Made by a program: the position numbers and the translations under genes
Source: a virus
Virus record (IMG/VR): IMGVR_UViG_3300021197_001584
Span: 1-64,000 of that record
DNA length: 64,000 nt
Reading direction: 5' to 3' (one strand)
The notes under the pieces: generated by a model
The model's input: only the letters and a program-made list of their open reading frames with translations
Told to the model about the DNA's origin: nothing
Database searches by the model: none
Part shown: positions 3,579 through 34,723 of the stretch, one piece after another
Layout of the letters: the number at the start of each line of letters is the position of its first letter
How positions within the stretch are numbered: position 1 is the stretch's first letter

Positions 3579-3586
3579 TAAATAGT
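3579..3586 (-). promoter_or_regulatory. Putative late promoter octamer ACTATTTA
   Basis: Minus-strand AACTATTTAA, 21 bases ahead of the ATG at 3557, with AAGGAA as ribosome site between them. Confidence 0.5.
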
Positions 3587-7814: not shown

Positions 7815-9674
7815 TCAGGGTTGACCTCCGTCAGCAGCACCAAGAAGGTCACGAACGATAACCAATCCGTACATATCCGGACGGACCATCTTCTTTCCGT
7901 AACGTGTCATGACACCTTTACGAGGAACGAAGTCTTCAGGTCCAAAGATAGTTGGAGTTGTTTGCAATGGCACGTATGGTGCATAAACATATCCACTTTC
8001 CAAGAAAGAAGAACCTTTACGTCCAACCAAGATAGCATTACGTGGGAAGTAAGGATCAACGATAACGTCGAACTTACGGTTCAAAGAACCAACCTTAACA
8101 GCACCGATGTCGCCTTTGTCAGCGTCAGCAGTAACGTTTGCACGGAAACCAGCAGTGAACTCAAGAATGTTTGCAACTTCAGGAGAAAGAACTACGAAGT
8201 TAGCGCCACCACGCAAAGTCTTGCGATGGATTTGTGCAGAAACGTCGTTGATAGTTTCGATCAAAGTTTCATACCATTCAGAAACAGTACCCGTGAAGTC
8301 AGGAGTAGTTGCTTGAGCGCCAATCTCAGCACCAGTCAAGCGATTAACGAAACGACCAGGAGCACGAGACCAGTAGAATGAACCAGCTGTTGCGCCGTTG
8401 ACCAAGTCACCCAAGATTTCGCGATCGATTTCCAAAGCAATTTGTTCAGACAAGATAGAAGTCAATTCAACTTCAGCATCCAAGTTGTGATAAGCGTTCA
8501 AGTCTTGTCCCAATTCAGGAGTCCACTTTGCTCTCAACTTTTTGGTCACTGCGGTGATTGCGATTGAGTCAACCTTGATGTCGATCTCTGGGATATCAGT
8601 GTTGTCTTCAAGGCCCCAGTTATCGATACCTTTTACAGAACCAAGAGCATTAGATCCAGTCAGTCCATCGATCATTGGGAATTCAATCTTACCCATTGCA
8701 GAAGTGGAAGTCCCAACAGTTCCAACATAGGCAGCGACAGCAGCACTAGCTTTACTTGCATCATCGGCACAAACATAGTAGAATGTGAAAGCATCTGCAT
8801 CAACATCGTATTCAGTCAGGCGACGAACTTGAGTAAAGTTAGTAACCGTTACAACATTCCCCGATGCATCAGTCAAGGCTGCTGCATGATTAGTTAGGTT
8901 CAATGGAGCAACGATTTGAGACAACATTTTCAAATTGATTTTGCTCTCTGATGATGATGAAATAGATTCAATTTGAGAACGAAGAACAGTCAAAGAAAGC
9001 AAGAAACCAGCATTAGGGTTTGCTTCAGCTGAAAATTCTCCAAGAACATCTGCATCCCATTGGATTGCCTTGAACGCTGTGACGTTAGGACCACTTGGAT
9101 CACTCAACAATTCAGCACCAGTCGCACCGGCCGTAAAACCATCAAAGGCAACAGCTGAAATTTGAGCACCAGCTGCTTTAGATCCAGTTGGTGAAGAATA
9201 AGCAGAACCAAGACCATATGGTTGAAGATCCATGGTTTCATTGTTCAACAAAACACCACCAGTGATCTGAGAAGCAATTCGTCCTTGACCATAAATTGAT
9301 TCGCGATCTTGACCGGATCGTGGAGACCCATCGGTGTCAGAAAAAGTGAAATCCATGAAGAAGATCAAACCAGAAGGCAAAGACATTGGTTGTACAGAAA
9401 CCAAATCGTTAGCAATCAATCCGGCGAATACACGACGAACGATTGGGAAAGCAACAGCAGCGAAACCTTCAACGTCGCCACCAGCCATAGTGTTAGACTC
9501 ACGCAATAATTCGCGAGCTTGATTTTCCAAAAGGCGAGCCATGCCAGCCTTTTGTTCGTCGCTAGACAAGCCTTCCAAAAGACCAGTCTGTGACCATTTA
9601 TTCAAAAGTGATGCACCTTCTTGTTGCATGTTGCGGTGTACCATCCCTTCTGTAAGAGTTTCGATAATTGACAT
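7815..9674 (-). CDS. Major capsid protein, gp23-like
   Basis: A 619-residue protein (T4 gp23 is 521). Colinear matches to gp23 that I can see: LLNKW...LLEG near residues 23-34, ENQ at 50-52, RR..A.LIA.D...VQPM..P+G at about 80-110, a P-ELGQDLNAYHNLDAE-EL..IL segment followed by E-I-D-R-E, then YAPYVPL..TP near 580 and a VMTRYGKKM ending. By analogy with gp23 maturation, a likely protease cut is after Glu59 (LLRE/SNTM), an L-x-E site. It forms the head shell, is assembled on the scaffold encoded just upstream and is trimmed by the protease at 20265-20888. GGAG precedes the ATG. Confidence 0.93.
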   Translation of the reverse strand: MSIIETLTEGMVHRNMQQEGASLLNKWSQTGLLEGLSSDEQKAGMARLLENQARELLRESNTMAGGDVEGFAAVAFPIVRRVFAGLIANDLVSVQPMSLPSGLIFFMDFTFSDTDGSPRSGQDRESIYGQGRIASQITGGVLLNNETMDLQPYGLGSAYSSPTGSKAAGAQISAVAFDGFTAGATGAELLSDPSGPNVTAFKAIQWDADVLGEFSAEANPNAGFLLSLTVLRSQIESISSSSESKINLKMLSQIVAPLNLTNHAAALTDASGNVVTVTNFTQVRRLTEYDVDADAFTFYYVCADDASKASAAVAAYVGTVGTSTSAMGKIEFPMIDGLTGSNALGSVKGIDNWGLEDNTDIPEIDIKVDSIAITAVTKKLRAKWTPELGQDLNAYHNLDAEVELTSILSEQIALEIDREILGDLVNGATAGSFYWSRAPGRFVNRLTGAEIGAQATTPDFTGTVSEWYETLIETINDVSAQIHRKTLRGGANFVVLSPEVANILEFTAGFRANVTADADKGDIGAVKVGSLNRKFDVIVDPYFPRNAILVGRKGSSFLESGYVYAPYVPLQTTPTIFGPEDFVPRKGVMTRYGKKMVRPDMYGLVIVRDLLGAADGGQP

Positions 9675-10900: not shown

Positions 10901-10908
10901 TAAATAGT
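10901..10908 (-). promoter_or_regulatory. Putative late promoter octamer ACTATTTA
   Basis: Minus-strand ACACTATTTAAAGGAG, 29 bases ahead of the scaffold start and after a terminator. It would drive the scaffold-capsid unit. Confidence 0.55.
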
Positions 10909-20264: not shown

Positions 20265-20888
20265 TTAGTCTCCAAGAATCTTCTTAAATAGATTGTCAAT
20301 GTTATTTTCTTTTTGTTCTCGCAACTTTGTTGAGAAACGAGATGGCTTATTAGGGCCTCCTTTCGGATAAACATAGGCATCTGGCGTTGACGGTTCTGAC
20401 ACAATGTCAAAGCAGATAAGTTGGAAATCTTCTTGAACAACGGTCTGTCCTCTTGACTCTGATACGGATCCAAGTCCACGAGATGAAATTCCAAGTTTCA
20501 CACCAGCATTGATGAGGTCCTTTAGAATTCTACCGCTAGGAGTGTCGAGGATCTTGATCTTGCCCATTACATCTCTTCCCTCCCACCAACACTCTGTGAC
20601 GATGTGAGAAACGTTTTTAAGGTTAATTACGGAGTCGTCAGGGTGATCTAATTCACCTGTCGCTCTGTTATCCTTGATAATTTTTTGATAGTTTTCGATT
20701 TCACGTTTGAGGACTTTGTCTGGATACACACGACCATTACCGTTTTGCTTCTCGGCAGTTTGGATGCGACCAGTTAAGTACATCGCACCATTGTCTGTGA
20801 TGTCTCTCTTTTCTCTTTCGGTAAGCAAGTCTTGACACATTCCATCTGGACATAGTGCATGAAATTCTCTTAGCAATTTTTTTGACAT
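20265..20888 (-). CDS. Prohead core protease, gp21-like (peptidase S78/U9 type)
   Basis: A 207-residue protein, close to T4 gp21 (212). It shows NGRVYPDKVLKREI, the catalytic-His segment ATGELDHPDD and the catalytic-Ser segment LGISSRGLGSV, spaced as in the prohead protease family, with a C-terminal P-S-T-P-D-A-Y-V. It should cleave scaffold, capsid and internal proteins after L/I-x-E during maturation. I start at 20888 because the ATG follows GGAG at the right distance; a TTG in frame at 20900 overlaps that ribosome site. A terminator and a GC-rich structured segment lie directly upstream. Confidence 0.9.
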   Translation of the reverse strand: MSKKLLREFHALCPDGMCQDLLTEREKRDITDNGAMYLTGRIQTAEKQNGNGRVYPDKVLKREIENYQKIIKDNRATGELDHPDDSVINLKNVSHIVTECWWEGRDVMGKIKILDTPSGRILKDLINAGVKLGISSRGLGSVSESRGQTVVQEDFQLICFDIVSEPSTPDAYVYPKGGPNKPSRFSTKLREQKENNIDNLFKKILGD

Positions 20889-20901
20889 TTCTTTCTCCAA
20901 T

Positions 20902-21975: not shown

Positions 21976-22780
21976 TGCGCTTTACCTCCGCTAAAAGGTC
22001 TTGAATGTAAAATATCTCTTCGACTACGGCCTCATTTAAAGGCTGAGATGCGTAGTTGTCCAGCTTTGCCTTAACTTTTTTAAAATTTTCATTTAAGGCA
22101 CTATTACGTCCTTCTACAATCTCGGCGCTTACGGCTTCTTTGAGACGTCCGATTTCCGAATTTAGATAAGACTTAAGTCCCAATCCATTATCGGAAAATG
22201 ATGTAATAAAGTTTGTCAAAAGCTCTTTCTGCTCTGTTAACAAAGAATGTTCATAAGTGTCGTTAAATCTGTTAACGAACATTTTGAATTCTAACTTGTC
22301 GAGATGTTTCATTTCTGTTAAAACCTTTTCTGATCTACAAAGGTATCTCACACAATTGTCTTCAAGCATTATGCGCTTCTTTGCAGAGAGATTGTCTTGT
22401 TGCAAGAACAAGCCTACTGTTGCAAGGTCTTTGTAGTTTGGAACGAAGATCCCAAATGAGTCAGAACCCAGTGCTTTATTGATTCTGTTAATGAGCTTTG
22501 TTTGCTCATTGAACACTTCTCTTCGATCTATGGAATCAAAGTCCTTCTTTGTTTCAGCCAATAGACGGCGTGAGTAATTAGCTTTCAAATCCTTTGACTC
22601 AAGAAGAGATCGATAGATCTCAAGTTCACGAGCTAGTGTTGTTCCTTTTGTAAAGAACTCTTTTAGGATTGCTTTTACGATTTGCTGCTCTTGTTTGTTT
22701 TCGCGAATGACAGACTTTGTCAATGAGCGAACAAGGCATTCGTAAAGAAAAGCGGTATTTCTTTTCTTATTGTGTTTCAT
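21965..22780 (-). CDS. Helical protein after the portal gene, unknown function
   Basis: A 271-residue, mostly alpha-helical, basic protein with coiled-coil potential at residues 205-271. Features include MKHNKKRNTAFLYECLVRSL at the start, a KEFFTKGTTLARELEIYRSL helix near 45 and a FGIFVPNYKDLATVGLFL segment near 110. The order portal, this gene, 21340-type gene, protease recalls head modules of marine T4-type phages, but I can name no function. Its ATG overlaps the portal gene by 14 bases with GGAG in front. Confidence 0.6.
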   Translation of the reverse strand: MKHNKKRNTAFLYECLVRSLTKSVIRENKQEQQIVKAILKEFFTKGTTLARELEIYRSLLESKDLKANYSRRLLAETKKDFDSIDRREVFNEQTKLINRINKALGSDSFGIFVPNYKDLATVGLFLQQDNLSAKKRIMLEDNCVRYLCRSEKVLTEMKHLDKLEFKMFVNRFNDTYEHSLLTEQKELLTNFITSFSDNGLGLKSYLNSEIGRLKEAVSAEIVEGRNSALNENFKKVKAKLDNYASQPLNEAVVEEIFYIQDLLAEVKRNVS

Positions 22781-24659
22781 CCTGATCTCCTTTCATGGTT
22801 AGTGATTCTAATAGTGTTCTAATTTCAGCTTCAGATTTAAATAGTTGGCTTTCTTCGAAATCGGTAGATTCTGTTACACCTCGAGCTAATGAGTCTAAAC
22901 CACCAAATCCGACTTTGCCGGGAAAGGTCTTGCGAGCAGTTCCGATCTCACCAGAAGCAGTGTTGTTCATTTGTTTTTTCATTCCACCTTTTCTATAAGT
23001 CAACTTGTGCCGCTTGTAAGGTCCTCGGGGTTTTGCATCATCATCACGCTTTGCTGGAGGTTCTGCCATTAGATCGGGTTCGCCACCAGAATCACCACCA
23101 GCGTCATCGCCAGCGTCATCGCTTCCTGTATCTAAGTCCCCACCTAAATCATCCCCGCCTAGGTCGAGGTCTCCACCTCCACCGCCAGAGTCACCGCCGC
23201 CTTCATCTCCTTGACCAGCCCCTTCGAGAGCGTTCATGAACTTCTTATCGCTAAACATTTCACGTTGCATTCGCAAGTATTCTTCTTGTGACAAACCGAG
23301 TAAGTTTTCAGAAACCCAACGACGAGAGAAGTAGCCTTCTGTTGCTGCTCCTGCAATGTCAAACTTTGTCTTCCAATGTTCGAGTTCTTGCATCTCGGCA
23401 ATCTTTGATGGATTATTAAGACGAAGCTTGAAGTTCAACAGATCATCATCGCGATATCCCATTGTGTAAAGATGAACAATTCCAACTTTCTCAAGTTCCG
23501 AAATGAGAACTCGTTGAAGTCTCTGAATGGTTCTTGCGAATCGGATGTCCTTTTGAGCAAGAGTTGTCTTGTCTTCAGTTGCTCCTTCACCCATCGATAG
23601 ATATGATTGTGGAACTTTGAGAGCAGAAAATAGTTTGTCTCGAAGATATTTGACATCTTCGATCTGTGCTGTAAATTGTCCTCCAGGAAGGTTCTCAATG
23701 TTCGTAGAGGACTGTCCGCCTCTAACTGGGATAAAGTAGTCCTCTTCAATCGAAAGTGGGTTGTAGCGTAAATCTACGCGACCTGTGGTTGGGTCAACAA
23801 CTTGGTGACGCTTCATCTGAGTCATGACTTTTTGCATGTATTGTTCAACGTCTTGAGGTGCGATTCCACCAACGTCAATCTTGAAAACACGACGCTCTGG
23901 TGAGCGAGTGATTCTGTAAGCCATCATGGCATCTTCCAATAGCGTAAGTTGTCTCCAGATCCGTCTAGCGGGCTCTAGGACGCTTGTTCCGTAAGGAGCA
24001 TGTTTGTCATTACCTAACACTCTAAAGTGCGCTATTTGCCAATTTTCGAGCGTTAAAGAGGCATTGTTCCATTGGTATTGAACATAGTTGGGATTTGTTG
24101 GATCCTCGCCTTCAAGTCTCTCGACTTCTTGAGGAGGAAGTCCGATGCAGTTTTGGATTCCTTTGCTCTCGTCAATGTCGAGATAGACAAATAGGTCTCC
24201 GTACTTACACATGGTTCTCGCCCAGCCGAAGAGGTTGTGTTCAACATTCATGATGTTGTAGTAAAGATTGTGCAAAATGTATTTGATTTCATCATTTGTG
24301 CAATTGATGTGGAGCATTGGAGTCAATGCTGAGTGAGTTGTCATCTCGTCTGCGTAAATGTCGAGAGAAGATGCAATCTCTGGTGTAAATTCCATTTGGT
24401 CGAAATCGATGTAACGCTCTGCTCGGTTTCTGTTCGAGATCATGTTGAGCGTCATGATGTTCATTGGGTTGTATTCGGTCTTCTTGAACTGCTGACCTGA
24501 TGCGGACTTGAAACGCTTTGCGTAAATATCCAAGTGGCGTCGTCGGAGTTGTCGTCCTGATTGTGTTCGTCGTTGGGTCAGAGGCCCCGAGAACATTCTA
24601 GTTAAAGCTTTGAATAAATCGTTTTGATTGTTATTCGGGTTTCTTTCGTTGCGAGCCAT
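22767..24659 (-). CDS. Portal vertex protein, gp20-like
   Basis: A 630-residue protein (T4 gp20 is 524) directly after the terminase gene. Residues 1-475 follow the gp20 pattern: an Arg-rich start, YIDFDQMEFTPEIASSLDIY, a helical stem region (YRITRSPERRVFKIDVG), and KVPQSYLSMGEG then FARTIQRLQRVLISEL. Residues about 475-558 are an unusual Gly/Asp/Ser tract followed by a basic Lys/Arg stretch, with a helical end. The portal ring is the DNA entry channel and binds the terminase motor. AAGGA precedes the ATG, four bases after the terminase stop. Confidence 0.92.
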   Translation of the reverse strand: MARNERNPNNNQNDLFKALTRMFSGPLTQRRTQSGRQLRRRHLDIYAKRFKSASGQQFKKTEYNPMNIMTLNMISNRNRAERYIDFDQMEFTPEIASSLDIYADEMTTHSALTPMLHINCTNDEIKYILHNLYYNIMNVEHNLFGWARTMCKYGDLFVYLDIDESKGIQNCIGLPPQEVERLEGEDPTNPNYVQYQWNNASLTLENWQIAHFRVLGNDKHAPYGTSVLEPARRIWRQLTLLEDAMMAYRITRSPERRVFKIDVGGIAPQDVEQYMQKVMTQMKRHQVVDPTTGRVDLRYNPLSIEEDYFIPVRGGQSSTNIENLPGGQFTAQIEDVKYLRDKLFSALKVPQSYLSMGEGATEDKTTLAQKDIRFARTIQRLQRVLISELEKVGIVHLYTMGYRDDDLLNFKLRLNNPSKIAEMQELEHWKTKFDIAGAATEGYFSRRWVSENLLGLSQEEYLRMQREMFSDKKFMNALEGAGQGDEGGGDSGGGGGDLDLGGDDLGGDLDTGSDDAGDDAGGDSGGEPDLMAEPPAKRDDDAKPRGPYKRHKLTYRKGGMKKQMNNTASGEIGTARKTFPGKVGFGGLDSLARGVTESTDFEESQLFKSEAEIRTLLESLTMKGDQDETQ

Positions 24660-24662
24660 TTT

Positions 24663-26240
24663 CTATCCTTTGTAAATCCAGAGAAATTCTTTTGTCTTCT
24701 CTATTTCCTCCCTATGTTTTTCGTTAAACGTTTCGTTATAGAACTTTTGACCTTTGATTTGCGTGTTCATGGTTGTGGTGCTTTTAAAAACACCTCCAAG
24801 CATTGCTTTCTTATATGCCATGTCTCGTTCGTTTTCAGCCAAGGCAGTGTCTCTAACCCAGCAAGCGATTGCCAAAGACATTACGAGATCATCATTGTAA
24901 GAACGCATTGCTTGAGGTTTACCATTGAACCAAATAAAAGTCTTCAATTCGTGAAAAACTCTAGCGGAGTGCATAGTAATTAGTTTGTTTCTGACGTACT
25001 CCTCCAATTTAGCCACGATTAAAGGTCTTGTTTTGGTAGATGTGGTGAAGCCCATGACTGCTCGGTCGTCATTCTCAGCAAGGTAGGCTTCGACATATTC
25101 GTGAGTTGACTTGATAGAATAGTAAAGTTTTTTATAATTCATATCTTTTAGCTTCTCGAGAACAGCAATTCCAACACCAACATTTTCAACAACGAGCAAA
25201 CATGTGCCATACTCTGTTCCTGCATCATAAAGGATCTTTGAGTACATGTCAAGGTCTGGTTTGCCTTGATATTCTGCAACAACAGTCATTGTGTCAACGC
25301 GGAGGATGTGAAAGCAACTATAGTCAGCTCCGTCACCTCGAGCAACATCGGCCGACAAAAGGTAAGGAACGCCTTCTTCAAATTTTTCCCAAATCCAAAA
25401 GTTACGATCATAGCCCACTCGATATTGTGGATCGCAGACATCGCTATGGATTCTCTGTAGATCCTCGGGATTAACAACAGTCTCACCAGAAGCATTGAAT
25501 GAGCACTCCAACTCCTGTGCGATTTGTCTCTTGGACATGTTGTTTGTCTCTTTGTCGAACCATGCTTGGTCTCGATCTGGGTGAACATCCCAATGGAGTT
25601 TCGTTGGAAAGAAATCGTTGTTCCCTGATTCAGATTCCGTGTAGGTTTTGTGGAACCAGTTTCCAACGCCGTTAGGGGTGCTTAGAGCGATGCAGCGGCC
25701 CCCTGTAGACAAAGTAGGGTAAAGACCCGTCCAAAGCTCGTCGAGGCCGTCAACGAACGCTGCCTCGTCTATAATAAGAAGCGACAAAGCTTCCGAACGA
25801 CCAGCGTCACCTGATGTGGTTCCAGCTTTTACTTGAGAGCCGTTTGTAAGTTCGAATGATTGTTTGTTGTCCGTTTGGATCTTTGCGATTAGCATCCAAG
25901 ACGGAAGGTTCTTGAAGATCATCTTGACCTTCTTTACAAGATTTGTTGCTGTGGATAGTTTGGTTGCGATGACGAGAACATTCTTTTCTCGGTGAAATAA
26001 CATAAACCAAGCAACATAGGCAGCCGAGATGGTTGAGATCCCGAGCTGTCTTGCTTTTAAGATTACGTTAAAACGATAATCGTTAAAGGACTTGAGCATG
26101 TCTTTCTGATAGTCATAAGTCTTGAAAGGAATTTGACCATGCATAGGATGCGAGATCTTACAATAATTGTCAATGAAGTATTGAGGATCCTTTCCGCACT
26201 TTACAAGTTCTTTAACGATTTCATTTTTTGTAAGTTTCAT
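24663..26240 (-). CDS. Terminase large subunit, gp17-like
   Basis: A 525-residue packaging motor (T4 gp17 is 610). ATPase: K-A-R-Q-L-G-I-S-T at residues 62-70 takes the Walker A place (T4 has SRQLGKTT; here the usual Lys is Ile and a Lys stands at the front), Walker B LLIIDEAAF near 154-162, and ALSTPNGVGNWF near 185-196 as coupling motif. Nuclease: DVARGDGADYS, VVENVGVG and a final NDDLVMSLAI. It cuts concatemers and translocates DNA into the head through the portal. Its first residues MKLTK repeat the start of three small proteins in this window. Confidence 0.93.
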   Translation of the reverse strand: MKLTKNEIVKELVKCGKDPQYFIDNYCKISHPMHGQIPFKTYDYQKDMLKSFNDYRFNVILKARQLGISTISAAYVAWFMLFHREKNVLVIATKLSTATNLVKKVKMIFKNLPSWMLIAKIQTDNKQSFELTNGSQVKAGTTSGDAGRSEALSLLIIDEAAFVDGLDELWTGLYPTLSTGGRCIALSTPNGVGNWFHKTYTESESGNNDFFPTKLHWDVHPDRDQAWFDKETNNMSKRQIAQELECSFNASGETVVNPEDLQRIHSDVCDPQYRVGYDRNFWIWEKFEEGVPYLLSADVARGDGADYSCFHILRVDTMTVVAEYQGKPDLDMYSKILYDAGTEYGTCLLVVENVGVGIAVLEKLKDMNYKKLYYSIKSTHEYVEAYLAENDDRAVMGFTTSTKTRPLIVAKLEEYVRNKLITMHSARVFHELKTFIWFNGKPQAMRSYNDDLVMSLAIACWVRDTALAENERDMAYKKAMLGGVFKSTTTMNTQIKGQKFYNETFNEKHREEIEKTKEFLWIYKG

Positions 26241-26252
26241 TTTTGGTGAGTT

Positions 26253-26771
26253 TTAATTTCGATTCATAACCGTGCCTCTTTCATCTTGAGACAATCTTAA
26301 GATTTCATTAAATTCTTCTCTAATCCTCTTTTTTTCTCTTTGCATCGTTGGTTTACTGCTCCCACTGCAGTAATGATTGATCTTATTACTGTATAGGCGT
26401 AAAATCCCACTCATAATTCTTGCATCGCAGGGGTCGATTTTTTTAGATTCAATGGCATCGAACAAATATTTTTCTTGTTCATCGGCAGTGGGAAACCTAG
26501 ATTTCATGTTGAATGCATTCTTGAATGCATTCAAACCTGCTTTTTTTAAATTTTTAGATGTAAGCTCTGGATTGTCGTCAAAGGGGTCTAATGGTTGTCC
26601 AGATGGACCTAGTGGAATAAATTCGAATGACTCTGGTGCTTGTTGTTGAGGCTCTTCCTTATTCTTTTTTTTCCCAAAACCGAAGAATCCTTCGTCAAGA
26701 TCTTGTTCGTTAACAACGGCGTCAAGCTCTTCTTTGATGATTCGTTTTAAAGTTTCTTTTGTAAGTTTCAT
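26253..26771 (-). CDS. Small protein with MKLTK...IIKEEL leader, candidate internal capsid protein A
   Basis: A 172-residue protein. Residues 1-16 are the shared leader MKLTKETLKRIIKEEL, containing I-K-E, a legal site for a gp21-like protease. It continues with D/E-rich residues, a GFFGFGKKKNKEE patch, a Pro/Gly/Gln-rich linker (25-65) and a helical C-terminal half (LTSKNLKKAGLNAFKNAFNM, IMSGILRLYSNKINHYC). Function unknown. It is the gene just before the terminase large subunit, so an alternative is a small-terminase-type protein. The ATGA overlap with the upstream gene indicates coupling. Confidence 0.6.
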   Translation of the reverse strand: MKLTKETLKRIIKEELDAVVNEQDLDEGFFGFGKKKNKEEPQQQAPESFEFIPLGPSGQPLDPFDDNPELTSKNLKKAGLNAFKNAFNMKSRFPTADEQEKYLFDAIESKKIDPCDARIMSGILRLYSNKINHYCSGSSKPTMQREKKRIREEFNEILRLSQDERGTVMNRN

Positions 26772-27328
26772 TTTTGATTATCTCCAGCCTTAATCTTTTC
26801 GTTTTGAGGACGCTTTGCTTTTGCGAACTCTAAAAACTTTTTTGTAATGTCATTAGTGGTATTTTCCGAAGGCTCCAACATCTCATCCATTTGTAAGCCG
26901 CCAATCTTGTAGTGTTGATAGGCTTGAACAAATGTTCGAACGTTTGAGGTTGTCTGAACGATAACCTGTGGTTCGCCCTTTGCAGTCAAGGAGACAGACT
27001 TTCCAGTGATTGCTTTGTATTCTTTTTGTAAGAACTTCTTAACTTCATTAATGGTTCTCATGATTTCATTTTCAAAACCACTTTCTTTCAAGTCTCGCAT
27101 CATGACATCTGATTGGTAATTGATGATCATGGAGTTTCCGTAAAACTTTACTTTAAAGCCATCGATGACTCGCTTGTCGAGCAAAGGGATGCCTTGCTCT
27201 CGCATAAGTCCGGTCTTTCGTGCTTTGCCATCATGGGAGTAGTTCTCCATGTGTTGTCCGCCGTCGTATGAACCGTTGGCGGCTGCTTGGGAAAGTCCCT
27301 GTATGATTTCTAATGTTTCTTTGCTCAT
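26768..27328 (-). CDS. Hypothetical protein near the terminase genes
   Basis: A 186-residue protein of unknown function. Residues 1-50 are Gly/Asp/His-rich and probably flexible. Residues 50-115 form an alpha/beta segment with VKFYGNSMIINYQSDVMMRD, then a basic helix (IMRTINEVKKFLQKEYKAI). Residues 115-160 have VIVQTTSNVRTFVQAYQHYKIG, and the tail is charged. Being two genes upstream of the terminase large subunit, a packaging or head-related role is possible. The ATG at 27328 follows an AAGAGGC-type site. Confidence 0.55.
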   Translation of the reverse strand: MSKETLEIIQGLSQAAANGSYDGGQHMENYSHDGKARKTGLMREQGIPLLDKRVIDGFKVKFYGNSMIINYQSDVMMRDLKESGFENEIMRTINEVKKFLQKEYKAITGKSVSLTAKGEPQVIVQTTSNVRTFVQAYQHYKIGGLQMDEMLEPSENTTNDITKKFLEFAKAKRPQNEKIKAGDNQK

Positions 27329-27344
27329 TTGTTTTTAGCCTCTT

Positions 27345-27656
27345 TTATTGATTCATTTTTTCTTTGATTGCCGAAACTAATTTCTGCACTTCTGGTGGGA
27401 GAGTCTGGATATAATCCGTTGCCATCTCGCTACCCTGGACAAGAATGGTTCCAGGAGAACCATCTTTTGGATAATAAGCTATAACATTTGTTCCTCTATC
27501 ATCTACAACTTTAATTTGGTCACCAAGACCTAGTTTTTCTGCAGCTAATTTGGCAAACTCCATAACGTCTGCGCCCATGTCTTCTGGTCCTTCCGCCATC
27601 ACTGCAGCTAATTCTTCTTTGATGATTTGTTTTAATGTTTGCTTTGTAAGTTTCAT
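27345..27656 (-). CDS. Small protein with MKLTK...IIKEEL leader, candidate internal capsid protein B
   Basis: A 103-residue acidic protein. Residues 1-16 (MKLTKQTLKQIIKEEL) are the shared leader with the I-K-E site. The rest is a small alpha/beta unit: an amphipathic helix DVMEFAKLAAEKLGLG, two strands IKVVDDRGTNVIAYY and a closing helix LPPEVQKLVSAIKEK. It starts at 27656 in an ATGA overlap with the zinc-ribbon gene; a longer reading from 27731 would run through that gene. Unknown function; cargo delivered with the DNA is one possibility. Confidence 0.6.
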   Translation of the reverse strand: MKLTKQTLKQIIKEELAAVMAEGPEDMGADVMEFAKLAAEKLGLGDQIKVVDDRGTNVIAYYPKDGSPGTILVQGSEMATDYIQTLPPEVQKLVSAIKEKMNQ

Positions 27657-28021
27657 TTGTTTGGTCTCCAGCCTTTTTTCCATCTTTCTTCTCGGCCTTC
27701 TATCCATTGGATGTAACATTTGTAGCAACAATCAAATTTCGTCATGTAAAGATCATCAACGGATTTGAATGAATAAGTGTTGCAAGTTGGACATGAACGC
27801 TCGGATTCTTTATTAAGTAGTTCTTTTGAGATTAAAACTCCATCTAGATCTACCTTTTGAGCCTCGGCTTTACCAAGTCTATAGTTGGACTTGAGTTCGT
27901 CGAGATACTCTTTTTCTTTCTCGTCATCCCAGTGGGACTTGGGATTGGCTACTGCTTCTTGGCCGTACTTTTCTGCAATTGCTTTTTCGACCTTTACGGC
28001 GTAATTTGGATCTTTGCTCAT
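27653..28021 (-). CDS. Small zinc-ribbon protein, unknown function
   Basis: A 122-residue protein. Residues 1-45 (MSKDPNYAVKVEKAIAEKYG, then W-D-D-E-K-E-K-E-Y-L) are helical. The C-terminal part has C-P-T-C near residue 77 and C-C-Y-K-C near 97, forming a likely four-cysteine zinc ribbon, then a W-x-x-G-W tail. Similar proteins occur in large marine phages, as far as I remember. Neighbours on both sides overlap it by four bases (ATGA), so it is co-translated with the candidate lysis genes and the leader-peptide gene. Confidence 0.6.
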   Translation of the reverse strand: MSKDPNYAVKVEKAIAEKYGQEAVANPKSHWDDEKEKEYLDELKSNYRLGKAEAQKVDLDGVLISKELLNKESERSCPTCNTYSFKSVDDLYMTKFDCCYKCYIQWIEGREERWKKGWRPNK

Positions 28022-28428
28022 TTAACACTCACTTCTATTTGATTTGCAGCATAGTAAGTCAAAAGAGATGCTGATGTTCCGAGGACAAAGCCACCGAAGA
28101 ACACCCAAGTTTGCCTTTTGGTGTTTGAGTTTCTTCTAAGAACCTCGATCTCTTCGTCTTTGATTTCGATCATCGCATCGTATTTTGTTTGCAATGCTGT
28201 CTTTTCTATATCTAAATAGTCAATTTGACGCTGTTTTTCCGCAAGTTGAAGTGAAAAATCTAAAGCAGCATTGATCGTACACTGTTCTTCTGTGAACTCT
28301 TTCATGGCTATTATAGATACAACCGCCTCATCATTAAACAGTCTACCGGCAAAAGGTGCAACTTCTCCTTCAGATAAAGGAGTCATCAACGGGGTTGCAG
28401 TTGCGAGTGCAGTCAAAAGCCAAATCAT
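28018..28428 (-). CDS. Signal-peptide, coiled-coil, membrane-anchor protein (spanin-like candidate)
   Basis: A 136-residue protein. Residues 1-15 look like a short signal sequence, followed by a conserved-looking block (APFAGRLFNDEAVVSII). Residues 55-105 form a coiled coil (SLQLAEKQRQIDYLDIEK...) and residues 110-128 a membrane span (TWVFFGGFVLGTSASLLTYY). A periplasmic coiled coil linked to the inner membrane is the layout of spanins, which complete outer-membrane lysis. There is no lipobox, so it is not a standard unimolecular spanin. It overlaps its neighbours by ATGA on both sides. Confidence 0.5.
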   Translation of the reverse strand: MIWLLTALATATPLMTPLSEGEVAPFAGRLFNDEAVVSIIAMKEFTEEQCTINAALDFSLQLAEKQRQIDYLDIEKTALQTKYDAMIEIKDEEIEVLRRNSNTKRQTWVFFGGFVLGTSASLLTYYAANQIEVSVK

Positions 28429-28814
28429 TTTAGCCTCGAGATGTTTAACTCTTCCATTAGAATGCGATCAATGGCATCCGGGTCTTCCTTGGCTAGCTCA
28501 ATCAATTCAAGCTTTCGATTTACCGTCTCTCTCTCGAGTTCGGTCTGGGCTTGTCTATGTTGTCTTCTCAAGGCTGTTCGAGACTGCATGTATTTTTTGT
28601 TGGCTCGAGCAAGTCTCAACTTTTCCTCAGCTGAAATCTCTTCGATTACTTCAATTTCTTTTTCTTTTGCTTTGACGGTTGCTTCTGCGGCTTCGACTTG
28701 CTTCTCTTTACTTTTACGTCCGAGAACGAAAACGGTCAATACGACAACACCGGAAGCGATCAGCTCCCACTTATCCTTAATCCAATCCCACTTATCCTTA
28801 ATCCAGTTCGACAT
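28425..28814 (-). CDS. Membrane-anchored coiled-coil protein (i-spanin-like candidate)
   Basis: A 129-residue protein. Residues 1-20 hold a tandem W-I-K-D-K-W repeat, residues 20-36 are a membrane span (LIASGVVVLTVFVLG), and residues 38-120 a long charged coiled coil (KEKQVEAAEATVKAKEKEIE and on). N-terminal anchor plus long helix fits an inner-membrane spanin subunit, yet similar layouts occur in unrelated proteins. It begins in a one-base TAATG overlap with the holin-like gene, with GGAGG in front. Confidence 0.5.
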   Translation of the reverse strand: MSNWIKDKWDWIKDKWELIASGVVVLTVFVLGRKSKEKQVEAAEATVKAKEKEIEVIEEISAEEKLRLARANKKYMQSRTALRRQHRQAQTELERETVNRKLELIELAKEDPDAIDRILMEELNISRLK

Positions 28815-29029
28815 TATCCGTGCCTCCATGTTCTTGCGAAGTCAATCGCAGTTTGGCCACCAATATAAGTCATGGCAATCATTCCCCATGTTTCGGCATC
28901 GAGACCAACGCCCAAATACAAAAGGGCAGTAGCGACAGCGAACACAAGGAGCTTTCGTGAAATTGCCCTCTCCATTACGCTATCGATAATGCCCTTCTTT
29001 TCATTTTTATTCTCATTAGAGTCTTGCAT
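28814..29029 (-). CDS. Small two-span membrane protein (holin-like candidate)
   Basis: A 71-residue protein. A hydrophilic start (residues 1-24) is followed by two closely spaced hydrophobic segments (LLVFAVATALLYLGVG and WGMIAMTYIGGQTAI) and a short charged tail (DFARTWRHG). Size and layout fit a small holin, and the two following genes look spanin-like, so a lysis function is a reasonable guess. No endolysin is seen in this window. First gene of the packaging operon, 22 bases after the AACTAGTTAG motif; AGGAG precedes the ATG. Confidence 0.5.
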   Translation of the reverse strand: MQDSNENKNEKKGIIDSVMERAISRKLLVFAVATALLYLGVGLDAETWGMIAMTYIGGQTAIDFARTWRHG

Positions 29030-29051
29030 AGTATTTCTCCTTTGCTTGGCC

Positions 29052-29061
29052 CTAACTAGTT
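29052..29061 (-). promoter_or_regulatory. Variant late motif AACTAGTTAG
   Basis: Identical to the decamer at 19634-19643 and one base off ACTATTTAG. It lies upstream of the first gene of the long packaging operon. Confidence 0.45.
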
Positions 29062-29068
29062 CTTAACG

Positions 29069-32000
29069 CTACAATTTGACTTGTGCATAGCCATCAGTCT
29101 TATCTATATCGATTGACATATCGACTATGTCTTTCAATCCTTCTAGGTGAGTAATCAATAGAACAGTCTTGAATTGTGCTTTGATCATTTGCAACAGTCT
29201 CGTGAAGCCTTCCATGTGCTCTGCATCCAACGCTGTGGCTGGTTCATCAAGAACAAATATGTTTGACTTTGGCAAAGATGAAACAGAAATCAACGCAAGA
29301 CGAACAGCCATCGATGCAATTGTCTTCTCGGCACCTGAACCCATAGATAAAGGTCGTGGATCATAGTTTGGATGCTTCAGATAGACTTCAAGCTTATCTC
29401 CATCTTCTGCAAAGAATACTTGGAACTCAACAATTGACGAAAGAACTTTTTGGATCTCATCATTGATTACTGGGAGCATTGACTTGATAACCTCATAAGA
29501 GATTCCATTTGCATGTGTCGCCTTTACAAAGATGTCGTAAGCAATGTAGTCACGTTCGGCAGCAGAGATTTGATCGATTTTTTCTTTTGCTTCTTCAATA
29601 ATTCGCTTTGCAGATCCCTTCTCGGACATGAACTCTAGAACTTTTGACTCACAAATTTTGATCTCCGCTGCTTTTAGTGACACAGTCTTATTGATTGCTT
29701 GTAGATCTCGACGCAATGAGGATAGGTTTTCATAGGCCTCGATGTTGTCGTTGTAGTAAGCGATGTCGGCTTGACGATCATTGATTCTTCGTTCCATTAG
29801 AGACACTTTGCCTTCACAATTTTCCCACTGCAAAGACATGTTGCGAACTTCAGATTGTTCTCTCGCAAGAGTGTCGCGTTGGGCTTCGTAGTCTCGAACA
29901 ACTGCTTGTGAATAAGTTTCGTTGATCAACGATGCTTTCATCTTTAAATCAAGCATTTGAGAATTAAGAGTCTCGATAAGTTCACTAACCTCAACGATTG
30001 TGACCTTTGCTTCTTCTGCTTTCTTTACAAACTCGTTGTTACTGCAGAATTTGCAGTCAGGATCATACTCGTGATCATGGAGCATGTCGATCTTGCTTTG
30101 CAACCTTTGCTTCTCACGTAAAGCCTTGTCTCTAGACTTGGCCGTCTTTTTGATTTCATCTTTAATAATCTTGAAAGTATCAAGATCAGATTGAGCAACT
30201 ACCGACTCCTCAAGCAGAGATGGCAATCTAGCCGTTAAATCTTCGATTCTAGAGCGCTTAGAAGAGATCTCGGTAGATAACCTATCCATCTCACTAGAGT
30301 TCTTTAGAAGAGATTTTTGAGCCTTTGAGAGCGCGTCTTTCAACATATCTATGTCAAGGTCTCTTTGCGAAGCTGCTTCTACTTGATCTCGAATCAATTG
30401 CTGGTCTTCTTTGAGAACTGTCAATCTAGCAGTGTGTTTCTCGCAAAGAGTCTGTTGTGTTTCGATATCCTCAAGGATCTCTGCAAACTCGGCTTGGGCT
30501 CTTGAGAGCTTCTTCTGCCAATCGACTGATGTTAAGTGCTTGATAACTCCTCGCATCTCAGATGAGTCGGTCTTCGCAAGTTTATGCATTTGGTCGAAGA
30601 TCTGGAGATCTAGGAACTTTGCAAGGATCTCTTTGCGTTTTGTCGATCCTTCGTTAATGAATCCGAAAGATTCATTTTGAGCGGCGAGGGAAGTCATCAT
30701 GAAGTCTTCAAGCGAACCAAAGACATTTCTAATATTGTCGTCTGTCTTGTTGCGAGTGTCTCCGTTCTTTGACTCTGCTCTTGTACCAAGCGTTAGTTTT
30801 CGGAAGTTGAGTTCCGTTTTGGCTGAGACGACTTCTCTACCTTTAGACCTTCCGGTTGTTTTTTCGAGGCTTCGATCAATTTTGTAAACATCATCGCCGA
30901 CAGCGATCTCGAGTTTACAAGAAGCTTGTTCTTGGTTTTGATTGATGATATGGACATTCTTTCTTTCTCCTTTTGATGTCGTATTGAAAAGACCAAACAG
31001 TGCAGCATCAATAATAGATGATTTACCTGAATAGTTCTTTCCGAAGATTCCAACAAGGCCGTTTAGCCGGCTGAAATCTAAAGTATTACCTTTTCCGTAA
31101 TTAAATAGGTGGTCCCAACTCATTTTCTTAATATCCCACACAACATTTCTAGCGATAGGCGAGGATGAATCTATCTTCTTTAGATAGTCTCGGGACAATT
31201 CGACAACACGATCTCGAACGGAATCATCGATTTCTCTGCCTTCCATGAATTCTCTGAGGAACTTTTCTTGGTTATCAGGGTTTCTCATGTTCAACGACTT
31301 TCCGTTCTTCGCAGATGCCACATCGTTTGACAATGTGGAATTGTTCACGAAACTGACAGAATGTGTTGACCATTTGACTTGAGCATAGTCACACGCTCTT
31401 TTTAATTTTGCCATTGGCAAGTTGTGATTGCACACAAGTCTCAGACGCGAGTTCTTTGGAACATCGGTCACAGGTAGTGTCCCATCTTGATTGATGTGGA
31501 CAGTAATGAATGGTCGAGGCGATTGGAATAATCTCTTATCGATTGAGTGCTTATCTTTCGAGTGAATGTTCCACATGAGATAACCTTTCAACCTAGATTC
31601 TCCAAAGTTCTGTTGGACGGTCGAACCGGCGTACCAAACTCTTTGATTGAGGTCCATTGATTGGATCTTGTGAATGTCTCCGAGCATTGCATAGTCAAAA
31701 TCTAAAAAGATTGACATGTCATCCTCTCCGTGATCCAGAGAGAATCCAGAGCCAACCTGAGATCCTCGAATAGCACCATGATAAAGAGCGATGTTAATGT
31801 CATTGTTGTTCGATGGCATCTGCCAATTGTCTCTATCAAAGACAGACAAGACATTAAATGTCAAACCATCTTCGGGAGAATATTCTCCTGAGTTCTTCAG
31901 CAAAGTAAAGTTCGGATGCTGCATAGCATCTGCAATGGGCGTTACTGCATCTTGTCGATCACCATTCTTTAAGTTGCCATCGTGATTACCTAAAATCATA

Positions 32001-32236
32001 ATGGTTGGGGCGATGTCTGCCAGAGACTTGAGAAAGTTTGATGCCATCTCGAAGTACTCGGGAGACAACTGTGTCTTCGTGTGAGCTAGATCACCGGTGT
32101 GAACGATGTAGTCTGGCTGCTCTTGTTTCAAGCTATCGTAAATCTGATTGAAAACGTGGCGATATTCATCATGATATTTAAGATTGCGAATGTGTGTGTC
32201 ACTAATGTGAGCGATGCGGAACATTTTGTTCGACAT
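29069..32236 (-). CDS. Single-chain SbcD-SbcC (Mre11-Rad50-like) recombination nuclease, gp47-gp46 fusion
   Basis: A 1055-residue protein joining two proteins that are separate in T4 (gp47 and gp46) and in bacteria. Residues 1-260 are the calcineurin-type nuclease: SDTH (D13, H15), TGD (D49), GNHD (N84, H85), YHG (H153) and GDIH (H189). Residue 375 on is the SMC-type ATPase: Walker A GKNYSGKSS (399-407), long coiled coils around a zinc-hook C-x-x-C near 727, signature LSMGSG near 962 and Walker B VLDEPAT near 995. It processes DNA ends for recombination-dependent replication. ATG at 32236 follows AGGAGGACTT; an early-type promoter lies at 32265-32293. Confidence 0.9.
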   Translation of the reverse strand: MSNKMFRIAHISDTHIRNLKYHDEYRHVFNQIYDSLKQEQPDYIVHTGDLAHTKTQLSPEYFEMASNFLKSLADIAPTIMILGNHDGNLKNGDRQDAVTPIADAMQHPNFTLLKNSGEYSPEDGLTFNVLSVFDRDNWQMPSNNNDINIALYHGAIRGSQVGSGFSLDHGEDDMSIFLDFDYAMLGDIHKIQSMDLNQRVWYAGSTVQQNFGESRLKGYLMWNIHSKDKHSIDKRLFQSPRPFITVHINQDGTLPVTDVPKNSRLRLVCNHNLPMAKLKRACDYAQVKWSTHSVSFVNNSTLSNDVASAKNGKSLNMRNPDNQEKFLREFMEGREIDDSVRDRVVELSRDYLKKIDSSSPIARNVVWDIKKMSWDHLFNYGKGNTLDFSRLNGLVGIFGKNYSGKSSIIDAALFGLFNTTSKGERKNVHIINQNQEQASCKLEIAVGDDVYKIDRSLEKTTGRSKGREVVSAKTELNFRKLTLGTRAESKNGDTRNKTDDNIRNVFGSLEDFMMTSLAAQNESFGFINEGSTKRKEILAKFLDLQIFDQMHKLAKTDSSEMRGVIKHLTSVDWQKKLSRAQAEFAEILEDIETQQTLCEKHTARLTVLKEDQQLIRDQVEAASQRDLDIDMLKDALSKAQKSLLKNSSEMDRLSTEISSKRSRIEDLTARLPSLLEESVVAQSDLDTFKIIKDEIKKTAKSRDKALREKQRLQSKIDMLHDHEYDPDCKFCSNNEFVKKAEEAKVTIVEVSELIETLNSQMLDLKMKASLINETYSQAVVRDYEAQRDTLAREQSEVRNMSLQWENCEGKVSLMERRINDRQADIAYYNDNIEAYENLSSLRRDLQAINKTVSLKAAEIKICESKVLEFMSEKGSAKRIIEEAKEKIDQISAAERDYIAYDIFVKATHANGISYEVIKSMLPVINDEIQKVLSSIVEFQVFFAEDGDKLEVYLKHPNYDPRPLSMGSGAEKTIASMAVRLALISVSSLPKSNIFVLDEPATALDAEHMEGFTRLLQMIKAQFKTVLLITHLEGLKDIVDMSIDIDKTDGYAQVKL

Positions 32237-32260
32237 AAGTCCTCCTGTTTGTTTGGCTAC

Positions 32261-32566
32261 TTATAATGTAACATGTTTTGTTTTGAGTGTCAAGTATTTT
32301 TCTTCAAATTCATCATAAAAAATTGGACCTCCATCCATGAAAGTCAAGTCAAAAATGTTGTAGTCAAACCACTCTAGCGCCATTACAGCATCCCATCCGT
32401 AGGCATCTTTTAGACACTGGAGTAACGCGTCAACATTGTAGACCAATCGACTTTCTTTTCTATGAAATTCTTTTAAAGAGTCCTCGAACACTTCTTTTGG
32501 CTCCAAGACCATAAACTCATGACCATCTTCAATGGCATCTTCTATTATTTTATCAGCTAAATTCAT
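32261..32566 (-). CDS. Small acidic hypothetical protein
   Basis: A 101-residue acidic protein of unknown function: a helical first half (NLADKIIEDAIEDGHEFMVL), a central Y-N-V-D-A-L-L-Q-C-L-K-D-A-Y-G-W-D-A-V segment and a Tyr/Phe/Asp-rich end. It has its own early-type promoter and a strong AGGAGG site, so it is probably an early accessory protein. Its last 30 bases contain the promoter for the SbcDC gene. Confidence 0.55.
   Translation of the reverse strand: MNLADKIIEDAIEDGHEFMVLEPKEVFEDSLKEFHRKESRLVYNVDALLQCLKDAYGWDAVMALEWFDYNIFDLTFMDGGPIFYDEFEEKYLTLKTKHVTL
32265..32293 (-). promoter_or_regulatory. Early sigma70-type promoter for the SbcDC gene
   Basis: TTGACA (32288-32293), exactly 17 bases, TACATT (32265-32270), with ATGT directly before the -10. 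It lies inside the end of the preceding gene. Confidence 0.8.
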
Positions 32567-32591
32567 CGTAACCTCCTAAAGTTCACATTAT

Positions 32592-32620
32592 AATATAACA
32601 TGATTTAGGAACGTTGTCAA
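32592..32620 (-). promoter_or_regulatory. Early sigma70-type promoter for the 32261-32566 gene
   Basis: TTGACA (32615-32620), 17 bases, TATATT (32592-32597), again with ATGT before the -10. Confidence 0.8.
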
Positions 32621-32621
32621 A

Positions 32622-32828
32622 TCAATTGAGAAGAATTATCATTTCGGATGACACTACAATATCAATTCTTCCAAACCTAACAGAATACCACTTTATTTCT
32701 TTTCCAAAATCTACATCTGGTAAGTTATCGAAAGAGACAATAGACAACACAATACCTATGTTTGGCGTTGTTTCGCTCTTGAAATCTTCTAAAAACTCAA
32801 CCAAACTTCCAATTTGAATGTTCTCCAC
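32622..32828 (-). CDS. Small beta-rich hypothetical protein
   Basis: A 68-residue protein that looks like a small beta barrel (IGSLVEFLEDF, IGIVLSIVSF, KWYSVRFGRIDIVVSSEMIIL), comparable to SH3-like phage proteins. Function unknown. It starts with GTG at 32828 behind GGAGG; an ATG two bases earlier is out of frame. It carries the late-type ACTATTTA motif and not the early promoter of its neighbours, which suggests late expression. Confidence 0.5.
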   Translation of the reverse strand: MENIQIGSLVEFLEDFKSETTPNIGIVLSIVSFDNLPDVDFGKEIKWYSVRFGRIDIVVSSEMIILLN

Positions 32829-32845
32829 ATGAAGCCCTCCACTAC

Positions 32846-32853
32846 TAAATAGT
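32846..32853 (-). promoter_or_regulatory. Putative late promoter octamer ACTATTTA
   Basis: Minus-strand CACTATTTAG, 17 bases ahead of the GTG start at 32828. Confidence 0.45.
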
Positions 32854-32871
32854 GTCGAGACTAGCGATGAT

Positions 32872-33780
32872 CTACTCGATGTGACCTGTTCCTACAACAG
32901 ACCATTCAAGTTGGACATCAACATAGCCATTAAGGCCTTCGTATGGAACTCTTTGTTGAGAAAATCTTGTCATGTGAATAGCAGTTAATGACCACGTAGG
33001 ATATGATTGGAAATAAGATCCATCAAACATAAAGTATCCACTGTCATTAGTGGAGCACGACACTACACCAAGCAGTTGGCTACCGTCGGGAGAATAGGTT
33101 GCGATTGTAATGTTAAACAAGTCTTGTCCACCAGAAGGGCCCCACGAAAATTGTGTTCCAAACTTTGAGACAACTGCTGCAAAGGCATAGGAGATGTCTA
33201 CATAGCGCATCTCGTATGGCTCGATAAAGTCGAACCCGTGAATTGAACGAAACTGGAATGATGATCCATCTTGGAGTTGGACATTCATATTGACATCTCG
33301 ATCATATTGATATTCTTGAATAAAACCAGTGTAAACGTTCATTCCATTGTTGAAGGCACTAAAGGAGTTCGGATTTCCAAAGACATTAATTGACTGTCCA
33401 ACGTTTTGTGTTGAGACTCCGATTTGGACTGGATTTACGTTGTTAGTGCATTGCCCTGCTTGAGGAAACCGAGTCGGGTGAGTTTCGTTGATTTTGCTAT
33501 GGAACTTAGAATCAAACTGTATTGTGATCTCTTGGCTAACACCCATGCATGCTTGACATGCAACTTGCTCTAGATTAAAGTTTGTAAGCCCAACAGTGCC
33601 CCCTAAGGGCTCTGAGGACGGCTCGGTTGATGGTTCAACTGTTGGTTCGTTTGCCGGTTCTGAAGATGGTTCTATCGACGCTGTGTCGACTGTTTGCGTT
33701 GCCGTCTCTGTTGATTGGACCTTTTCTGTTGTTCTAATTCCGATGTCTCCACCGCAGGCCAAAAATAAGGCTAATAGCAT
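32872..33780 (-). CDS. Secreted lipoprotein with EP-rich repeat linker
   Basis: A 302-residue protein. Residues 1-9 (MLLALFLAC) give a very short signal ending in a lipobox with Cys9, followed by Gly-Gly-Asp. Residues 30-65 are a Ser/Thr/Glu/Pro linker with tandem S-S-E-P / P-S-T-E-P repeats. Residues 70-302 are a strand-rich domain with paired cysteines (C-Q-A-C near 74-77) and many aromatic residues. A lipoprotein would sit in the membrane of an infected Gram-negative cell, where superinfection exclusion or lysis-related roles are known for phage lipoproteins. The function is not established. ATG follows TAGGAG; it is flanked by the Smr-like gene and the 32622 gene. Confidence 0.65.
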   Translation of the reverse strand: MLLALFLACGGDIGIRTTEKVQSTETATQTVDTASIEPSSEPANEPTVEPSTEPSSEPLGGTVGLTNFNLEQVACQACMGVSQEITIQFDSKFHSKINETHPTRFPQAGQCTNNVNPVQIGVSTQNVGQSINVFGNPNSFSAFNNGMNVYTGFIQEYQYDRDVNMNVQLQDGSSFQFRSIHGFDFIEPYEMRYVDISYAFAAVVSKFGTQFSWGPSGGQDLFNITIATYSPDGSQLLGVVSCSTNDSGYFMFDGSYFQSYPTWSLTAIHMTRFSQQRVPYEGLNGYVDVQLEWSVVGTGHIE

Positions 33781-33788
33781 GATAACTC

Positions 33789-33998
33789 CTAGTGTTCGAT
33801 AACAATTATGTAGCCGAGGAACTCTCCTCGCTCATATTCTAGATCGTAGTAGTTCAATAGAGAACAGACAAGATCTTTCATAGCTTCTGAATTTCCGGTA
33901 ATGACCTTCATTCTACGTCGCCAATTGCTATTAATAAATAGTTCGAGTTTGCGTTTAGCGTCTCTATGTGTAGACCCGTGAAGATCAAGTGTCAACAT
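33789..33998 (-). CDS. Small Smr-domain-like protein
   Basis: A 69-residue protein with the start L-T-L-D-L-H-G-S-T-H-R-D-A, the LDLHG motif of Smr (small MutS-related) domains, then a helix ending in a basic patch (NWRRRMKVITGNS) and a C-terminal strand GYIIVIEH. Smr domains can nick DNA or RNA. It is close to the lower size limit for the domain, and the usual H-G-x-G loop is replaced by I-T-G-N-S, so activity is uncertain. ATG at 33998 follows GGAGG; longer readings would overlap the terminator upstream. Confidence 0.62.
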   Translation of the reverse strand: MLTLDLHGSTHRDAKRKLELFINSNWRRRMKVITGNSEAMKDLVCSLLNYYDLEYERGEFLGYIIVIEH

Positions 33999-34011
33999 CG
34001 AGCCTCCAAAA

Positions 34012-34038
34012 TAAAAAACCTTGCCGAAGCAAGGTTTT
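34012..34038 (-). terminator. Rho-independent terminator with TTCG loop
   Basis: AAAACCTTGC / GCAAGGTTTT around TTCG, with a T-rich tail, after the 34058-34513 gene. Confidence 0.85.
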
Positions 34039-34057
34039 GTAAGTAATCGATTATGAA

Positions 34058-34513
34058 TTAGTAGTATTCGTAACCTTGACCCGTGAATGGTCCGCTCATG
34101 GTGTAACCCGCTGTCTCTATAGCATATTTTGTCCAATCAAAGGTGTTATCCATCTGAACTGCATCAGTTGTGCGATTGCCTTCTTGGGCTGTGTGCTCAC
34201 CGTTCGAGCGCCAATGTAAATCAATAGTTTCCCCTGCAGATGCACTGTCTTCATGGCGATAAGGAATTTGAAAACTAACTTCCCAAACGGTCTCATCGTA
34301 ATTGTCATCAATTCTACAATCGTCCATTTTTAATTCACCAATAGAAGCAACTCTTTCTGTAAATTCAGAGCCTTTTAACTGCATGAATAGTCCATTCGCC
34401 CATTCTTGAGCTGCTTGTTTGTGCTCTGGAGGACATTCCTCTTCGTTTTCCATCATTACTCTTTCGAGTTCTTCTTTGATGATTCTTTTTAATGTTTCTT
34501 TTGTAAGTTTCAT
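34058..34513 (-). CDS. Small protein with MKLTK...IIKEEL leader, candidate internal capsid protein C
   Basis: A 151-residue acidic protein. Residues 1-16 are MKLTKETLKRIIKEEL, identical to the leader of the gene at 26253-26771, and the first ~48 bases are nearly identical at DNA level. The remainder is unrelated: helical (residues 25-45), then strands with W-E-V-S-F-Q-I-P-Y-R-H-E-D and a Gly/Tyr-rich end (GYTMSGPFTGQGYEYY). It stands outside the head operons yet has a late-type motif upstream and a terminator downstream, which fits a late, packaged protein. Function unknown. Confidence 0.6.
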   Translation of the reverse strand: MKLTKETLKRIIKEELERVMMENEEECPPEHKQAAQEWANGLFMQLKGSEFTERVASIGELKMDDCRIDDNYDETVWEVSFQIPYRHEDSASAGETIDLHWRSNGEHTAQEGNRTTDAVQMDNTFDWTKYAIETAGYTMSGPFTGQGYEYY

Positions 34514-34551: not shown

Positions 34552-34559
34552 TAAATAGT
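34552..34559 (-). promoter_or_regulatory. Putative late promoter octamer ACTATTTA
   Basis: Minus-strand GACTATTTAA, 38 bases ahead of the ATG at 34513 and just after a terminator. Confidence 0.5.
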
Positions 34560-34647: not shown

Positions 34648-34723
34648 TGGTGGAGATGAGGAGAGTCGAACTCCTGACCCCTTGCGTGCAAAGCAAGTGC
34701 TCTCCCAACTGAGCTACACCCCC
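34648..34723 (-). tRNA. tRNA-Ala(UGC)
   Basis: Seventy-six bases including an encoded CCA end. The cloverleaf is complete: acceptor GGGGGTG/CATCTCC with the G3-T70 pair that identifies tRNA-Ala, a GTAGCTCAGTTGGGAGAGC D arm, anticodon stem CTTGC/GCAAG with loop TTTGCAC (anticodon TGC) and T arm AGGAG/CTCCT with TTCGACT. The only tRNA in the window. It has a late-type motif ten bases before its 5' end and a terminator after it, so it may be a separate transcript. Confidence 0.97.

Follow-up and report, generated by a model that had tools for sequence, protein, structure and literature searches.

A 22-residue N-terminal leader on unrelated small proteins of an uncultured T4-type phage, a candidate capsid-targeting propeptide

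Results

The DNA examined here comprises positions 1 to 64,000 of IMG/VR virus record IMGVR_UViG_3300021197_001584, and this whole 64,000-nucleotide stretch is called the window. On its minus strand lie three genes whose small products begin with a common leader of 22 residues, MKLTK[EQ]TLK[RQ]IIKEELxxV[MV]xE, and continue into bodies without similarity to one another. They encode proteins of 151 residues (34058..34513; leader codons 34448..34513, profile E 5.7e-10; opening MKLTKETLKRIIKEEL), 103 residues (27345..27656; leader codons 27591..27656, E 8.7e-12; opening MKLTKQTLKQIIKEEL) and 172 residues (26253..26771; leader codons 26706..26771, E 2.0e-11; opening MKLTKETLKRIIKEEL). The 172- and 103-residue proteins are encoded directly upstream of the terminase gene, and the gene starting at 34513 lies 7 kb beyond. 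The 103-residue protein has its ATG at 27656; the mechanical listing of reading frames starts it at a TTG further upstream. A first-pass annotation, made from the letters alone, had reported a shared start of 16 residues with nothing shared after it, which we confirm, except that the similarity of the three proteins extends to about residue 22. In a six-frame BLOSUM62 scan of the window the leaders at 26771, 27656 and 34513 scored 75, 68 and 75, respectively, with a runner-up at 30 and no fourth leader-bearing frame. A leader profile search of the complete 79,471-base record likewise found none beyond these three.

The near identity in DNA that had been noted between genes in separate blocks amounts to 41–44 matches over the first 48 bases, and the differences are partly synonymous. 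These synonymous changes indicate that the protein rather than the DNA is conserved. Single-sequence AlphaFold2 modeling of the 151-residue protein (mean predicted local distance difference test score 51.8) placed a helix at residues 5–22, followed by a linker, which we take as a weak hint only.

Two further N-termini in the window were considered and rejected. The 141-residue protein at 19839, previously suggested to be a leader relative, belongs to a conserved family of its own and fails the leader profile; its helix resemblance is superficial. The terminase starts with MKLTKN and was discarded because the remainder of its N-terminus is conserved terminase sequence. The opening 15 bases of the terminase gene (ATGAAACTTACAAAA) are the same as in two of the leader genes.

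The record belongs to a T4-type phage of an uncultured group, with the main head genes all found on the minus strand of the window: the gp17-type terminase large subunit (24663..26240), the gp20-type portal protein (22767..24659; PF07230, E 2.5e-82), the gp21-type S77 prohead protease (20265..20900; PF03420, E 2.3e-33) and the gp23-type major capsid protein (7815..9674). The protease match bears out the earlier proposal of a gp21-like protease at 20265. The capsid protein has a conserved L-L-[RK]-E followed by [SA] where the T4 propeptide is cut. The protease N-terminus itself has a conserved L-L-[RT]-E, with proteases of the lineage starting MSK[KQ]LLRE. The closest cultured terminases, at no more than 46% identity, are those of Microcystis phage Mel-JY01, Flavobacterium phage immuto and Rhodothermus phage RM378, the last described as a Far-T4 phage (PMC4360716). 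On the presence of gp17, gp20, gp21 and gp23 homologues we class the lineage as T4-like of the Far-T4 type, "Far-T4" serving as a label of convenience.

IMG/VR was scanned with a degenerate DNA pattern for leader residues 1–16, which returned at least 80 matching stretches; the protein and cluster counts that follow are drawn from the 80 stretches listed plus the window. These loci encode 216 leader proteins that fall into 141 clusters with mutually unrelated bodies. The scan of related phages proposed in the first-pass annotation thus places the leader on at least 141 unrelated protein clusters in IMG/VR. Information content is high over residues 1–16, moderate over 17–22 and at background from about residue 24. 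A homologous domain running through the whole proteins was not seen, conservation ending after residue 22–23. We also carried out a low-bias test in which proteins were picked on residues 1–8 only and the seeds of the pattern were removed, the loci themselves still being seed-found. Here [ILV]12-x-E14 was kept in 98 of 115 unrelated non-seed clusters, compared with about 1.5% expected by composition. At one locus (L138:7073-8881, record G006) two leader proteins are fused into a single product of 603 residues, in which a second, full leader lies internally, and a relative of its second half stands as a separate gene at another locus (L032).

The leader also occurs in other sources. In the 484-kb uncultured jumbo phage LR756508, the neighbourhood of the S77 and terminase genes contains at least 19 genes with the leader. 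Among cultured relatives, Flavobacterium phage immuto (vB_FspM_immuto, host Flavobacterium sp. LMO8) has related starts, such as MKKSQLRQIIKEAL, near primase, terminase and head genes; its proteins of this group are gp072, gp080, gp084, gp094 and gp095. A second shared start in immuto (locus L106), MENFDLKKFLVENKL, with the form MENFDLKKFLVENKLTxNSxxLxE, is found on three otherwise different proteins (gp076, gp077 and gp092); it also contains L-x-x-F-L-x-E and is possibly a second targeting signal. A slightly looser degenerate pattern, applied to 257 Gb of bacterial and archaeal genomes, identified two contigs with the leader. Contig C25 (PBIO01000025.1) of bin G037, assigned to Halobacteriovorax, contains more than 20 tandem leader genes in about 10 kb (~53–64 kb) beside NifU- and IscA-like genes, and may be a phage contig placed in the bin of its host. 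Another contig of the same bin holds an S77 gene. Searching INPHARED by tblastn with the 22-residue leader gave no match, probably owing to the low-complexity filter, and was not used as a negative. Literature on the leader was sought among open-licence papers and none was found.

Head genes were typed in 36 leader-bearing records, all of them fragments. An S77 protease was detected in 20, a T4 portal in 24 and a T4 capsid protein gp23 in 14. Wherever the stretch downstream of a complete portal falls within the contig, S77 was found. Records G001 and G003 contain the entire portal gene but no protease, and both end less than 3 kb from the portal on the side where the other records have the protease. 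A record without head genes (G014) encodes a baseplate protein close to that of the window (E about 1e-170). Location was assessed in 12 non-redundant records, each 40 kb or longer, using circular shifts that preserve the clustering of leader genes. No more than 15 kb separates the portal from 55 of the 59 leader genes, compared with 26 expected, and none of 20,000 shifts reached 55. One record (G004) has eight leader genes between protease and capsid gene. In a control set of 41 podophage records the leader was found in none.

The I-K-E triplet pointed out in the first-pass annotation is present as I12-x-E14, and it is one of two gp21-type triplets in the leader. The other, the terminal [LIVM]20-x-E22, is an equally good candidate cut site, and leader conservation stops where this second triplet stops. 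An [LIVM]-x-E triplet with its glutamate at positions 18–26 occurs in 108 of 131 leaders (62 of 131 if only L or I is allowed), versus 9–21% deeper in the same proteins and 50 after shuffling (maximum 61). The marine group keeps E14 almost without exception. In LR756508 the E22 triplet, [LIVM]20-x-E22, is at the same place in 14 of 19 leaders. One cargo family carries [IL]-D-E followed by lysines at its junction, behind two such leaders and behind an unrelated N-terminus (L064, L035 and L048). From these motifs, cleavage may be predicted after E14, E22 or both.

The N-terminus of T4 internal proteins IPII and IPIII is MKTYQEFIAEA. According to PMC9026906, work on mutants of this signal assigns residues 4 and 7 to targeting and residues 8 and 10 to processing. 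The most constant leader residues, L8, I11, I12 and E14, have a spacing identical to T4 residues 4, 7, 8 and 10. L8 and I11 are hydrophobic and lie 6 and 3 positions ahead of the glutamate, comparable to Y4 and F7 of T4, and only position 8 had been pre-selected. As with the T4 signal of IPI, IPII, IPIII and Alt, the leader is a short N-terminal sequence on unrelated, variable small proteins, contains an [L/I]-x-E triplet inside or at its end, and belongs to a phage encoding a gp21-type S77 protease. It differs in length (22 versus 10 residues), in consensus (MKLTKExLKQIIKEELxxVLxE versus MKTYQEFIAE), in often having two triplets and in tagging 3 to about 20 proteins per record; their packaging is predicted. 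Because the leader does not belong to the sequence family of MKTYQEFIAE, with agreement limited to M, K and spacing, it is best filed as a variant working like the T4 signal and not as the same signal.

T4 gp24 starts MAKINELLREST, and the same L-L-R-E-S is found where the capsid protein of the lineage is expected to be cut. Given the L-L-R-E sites of the lineage capsid protein, its protease and T4 gp24, the basic residue in I-I-K-E is not unusual. In cyanophage S-SM2, the small protein SSM2_108 (L107:16377-16805) reads MKTLKQFLKE-TPTNSVGNGGYTS and matches its gp23, MIAE-QPTNAVGNGGYTS. After MKTLKQFLKE, the small protein is therefore a copy of the segment downstream of the expected capsid-protein cut, which suggests a common type of end site for the short leader and the capsid propeptide.

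Giant phages offer a second comparison. According to the passages on propeptides in PMC10052503 and PMC9026906, head proteins of phiKZ and SPN3US (in SPN3US, gp45 and gp225) have N-terminal propeptides of 20–24 residues that are cut after glutamate by a gp21-like protease, with several cut sites within one propeptide. The leader resembles these in its length and its multiple candidate glutamate sites. Their motifs, S/A-x-E or A-x-E, differ from that of the leader, and those passages describe no shared leader on unrelated proteins.

Most cargo bodies are acidic and lack cysteine, and their median length is 94 residues. Only two of 135 matched Pfam, one to DUF3293 and one to RNase_T. The body of the 151-residue window protein had no relative found in IMG/VR, and the protein itself had no PHROG and no significant Pfam family; the 103-residue protein has a similar leader-bearing counterpart at position 10006 of locus L034. 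By the method used, close relatives of the three window bodies were almost absent from the 2.9 million viral contigs of IMG/VR. The injected internal proteins of T-even phages are non-essential, highly variable and partly anti-restriction, and stand behind a constant signal (PMC12373910). The leader cargo shares this arrangement of variable bodies behind a constant signal, and the near-absence of relatives fits the changing cargo of the T-even proteins. Some cargo modules also stand behind different N-termini in other phages. T4-GC119 was considered as a proven virion protein with the same cargo modules and set aside, since it appears in the proteomics paper as a hypothetical protein. A 354-residue protein at another locus (L021:2062-3123) opens in a leader-like manner (MPISKQDVMRIIKEELEKFLDE) and has a likely RNase_T exonuclease domain, although one would not expect to find a nuclease in the head.

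Discussion

The best reading of these sequence patterns is that the leader would be this lineage's own counterpart of the T4 signal, a tag on a large and fast-changing set of injected proteins. The capsid-targeting interpretation of the first-pass annotation is supported by the presence of one leader on many unrelated proteins, its restriction to T4-type phages with an S77 protease, its proximity to head genes, the conservation of its triplets, the residue spacing shared with T4 and its rarity in the controls (0 of 41 podophage records and two contigs in 257 Gb of bacterial and archaeal genomes). We put at roughly 70% the probability that the leader is a capsid-targeting propeptide cut by S77, with the cargo staying in the head and probably being injected. 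Accompanying steps of prohead entry, cleavage, injection and cargo action are ones that we infer. As an amphipathic helix of some 22 residues at the N-terminus, the leader would bring the attached protein into the prohead core during head assembly. The S77 prohead protease would then remove it after the glutamate of [L/I]-x-E, at E14 (I-I-K-E), E22 or both. Freed proteins would remain in the head with the DNA, probably to be delivered to the host cell, where small, fast-changing proteins could act early, for example against host defences.

Several points weigh against this interpretation. M, K and spacing aside, the leader has no resemblance to the T4 sequence. At the first site P1' is mostly E, compared with A or S at the T4 sites examined, and the second triplet of the three window proteins has M or V, not L/I. 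Position 14 is K, R or Q in four of 19 leaders of jumbo phage LR756508. Cleavage at E14 alone would leave unexplained why residues E15, L16, V19 and L20 are conserved too. Three leader-bearing records (G005, G006 and G032) have no typed head gene within their fragment. The podophage control is made up of one lineage and about 0.6 Mb. Among open-licence papers, we found no virion proteomics of any leader-bearing phage.

The conservation past E14, together with the substitutions at position 14 and the low-confidence helix predicted at residues 5–22, could also be accommodated by an uncut binding helix that ties proteins to a common partner, be it the prohead core, the inner capsid face, DNA or a membrane, with the glutamates in its binding face. 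We consider this unlikely, given that [LIVM]-x-E triplets are strongly enriched at the right place, that the spacing equals the processing residues of the T4 signal and that the capsid protein and protease of the lineage carry the same kind of site. Less probable still is a single divergent homologous family, its bodies drifted past recognition, in which the leader would serve as a domain or oligomerisation helix and have no targeting role. The proteins are indeed small, neighbouring and often tandem, as duplication predicts, and the 603-residue fusion of two such proteins exists. However, 141 clusters lack detectable similarity past residue 22–23 and include RNase_T-type and DUF3293 proteins, and cargo modules are seen behind other N-termini in other phages.

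A nucleotide element, such as a translation or recombination signal with the protein likeness as a by-product, would account for the 41–44 of 48 bases shared by the window copies. This explanation is largely refuted by synonymous variation, and we regard it as very improbable: where residues are identical, their codons differ in about 30% of comparisons within a locus and 38% of those between loci, and across phages amino acids 8, 12 and 14 are constant whereas their codons vary.

Returning to a capsid-targeting propeptide, we lean, if only slightly, toward a broader proposal, in which the leader would be a common head-loading code, distinct in sequence from that of T4, across uncultured marine T4-like and jumbo phages. 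Each virion would contain several to about 20 tagged proteins, and the tag would mark hundreds of function-unassigned families as injected cargo, much of it likely anti-defence. Most proteins of uncultured phages are without an assigned role. If the leader is indeed a packaging tag, a short motif predicts which proteins are carried in the virion and enter first, and first-entering proteins are where anti-defence proteins are expected. It would also provide a second, independent targeting signal for comparison with that of T4, and a handle to load proteins into the heads of another phage group.

Other features of the window

The late-type motif that had been assigned to the gene at 34058..34513 was not borne out as a T4-type element, the T4 late promoter TATAAATA being absent from the window; CTATTTA was probably meant. 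A copy of CTATTTA lies on the minus strand at 34552..34558, 44 bases upstream of the start at 34513, and others include 20285-20291, 10901-10907 and 3579-3585. Among 21 sense copies, 10 sit 15–75 bases upstream of gene starts, compared with 5% expected. This enrichment makes CTATTTA a possible promoter, and it may be the late-promoter element of this phage. A tRNA-Ala gene (34648-34723) lies just upstream of the 34513 gene, and the protein encoded at 32872-33780 resembles a secreted lipoprotein with a Ser/Glu/Pro-rich stretch.

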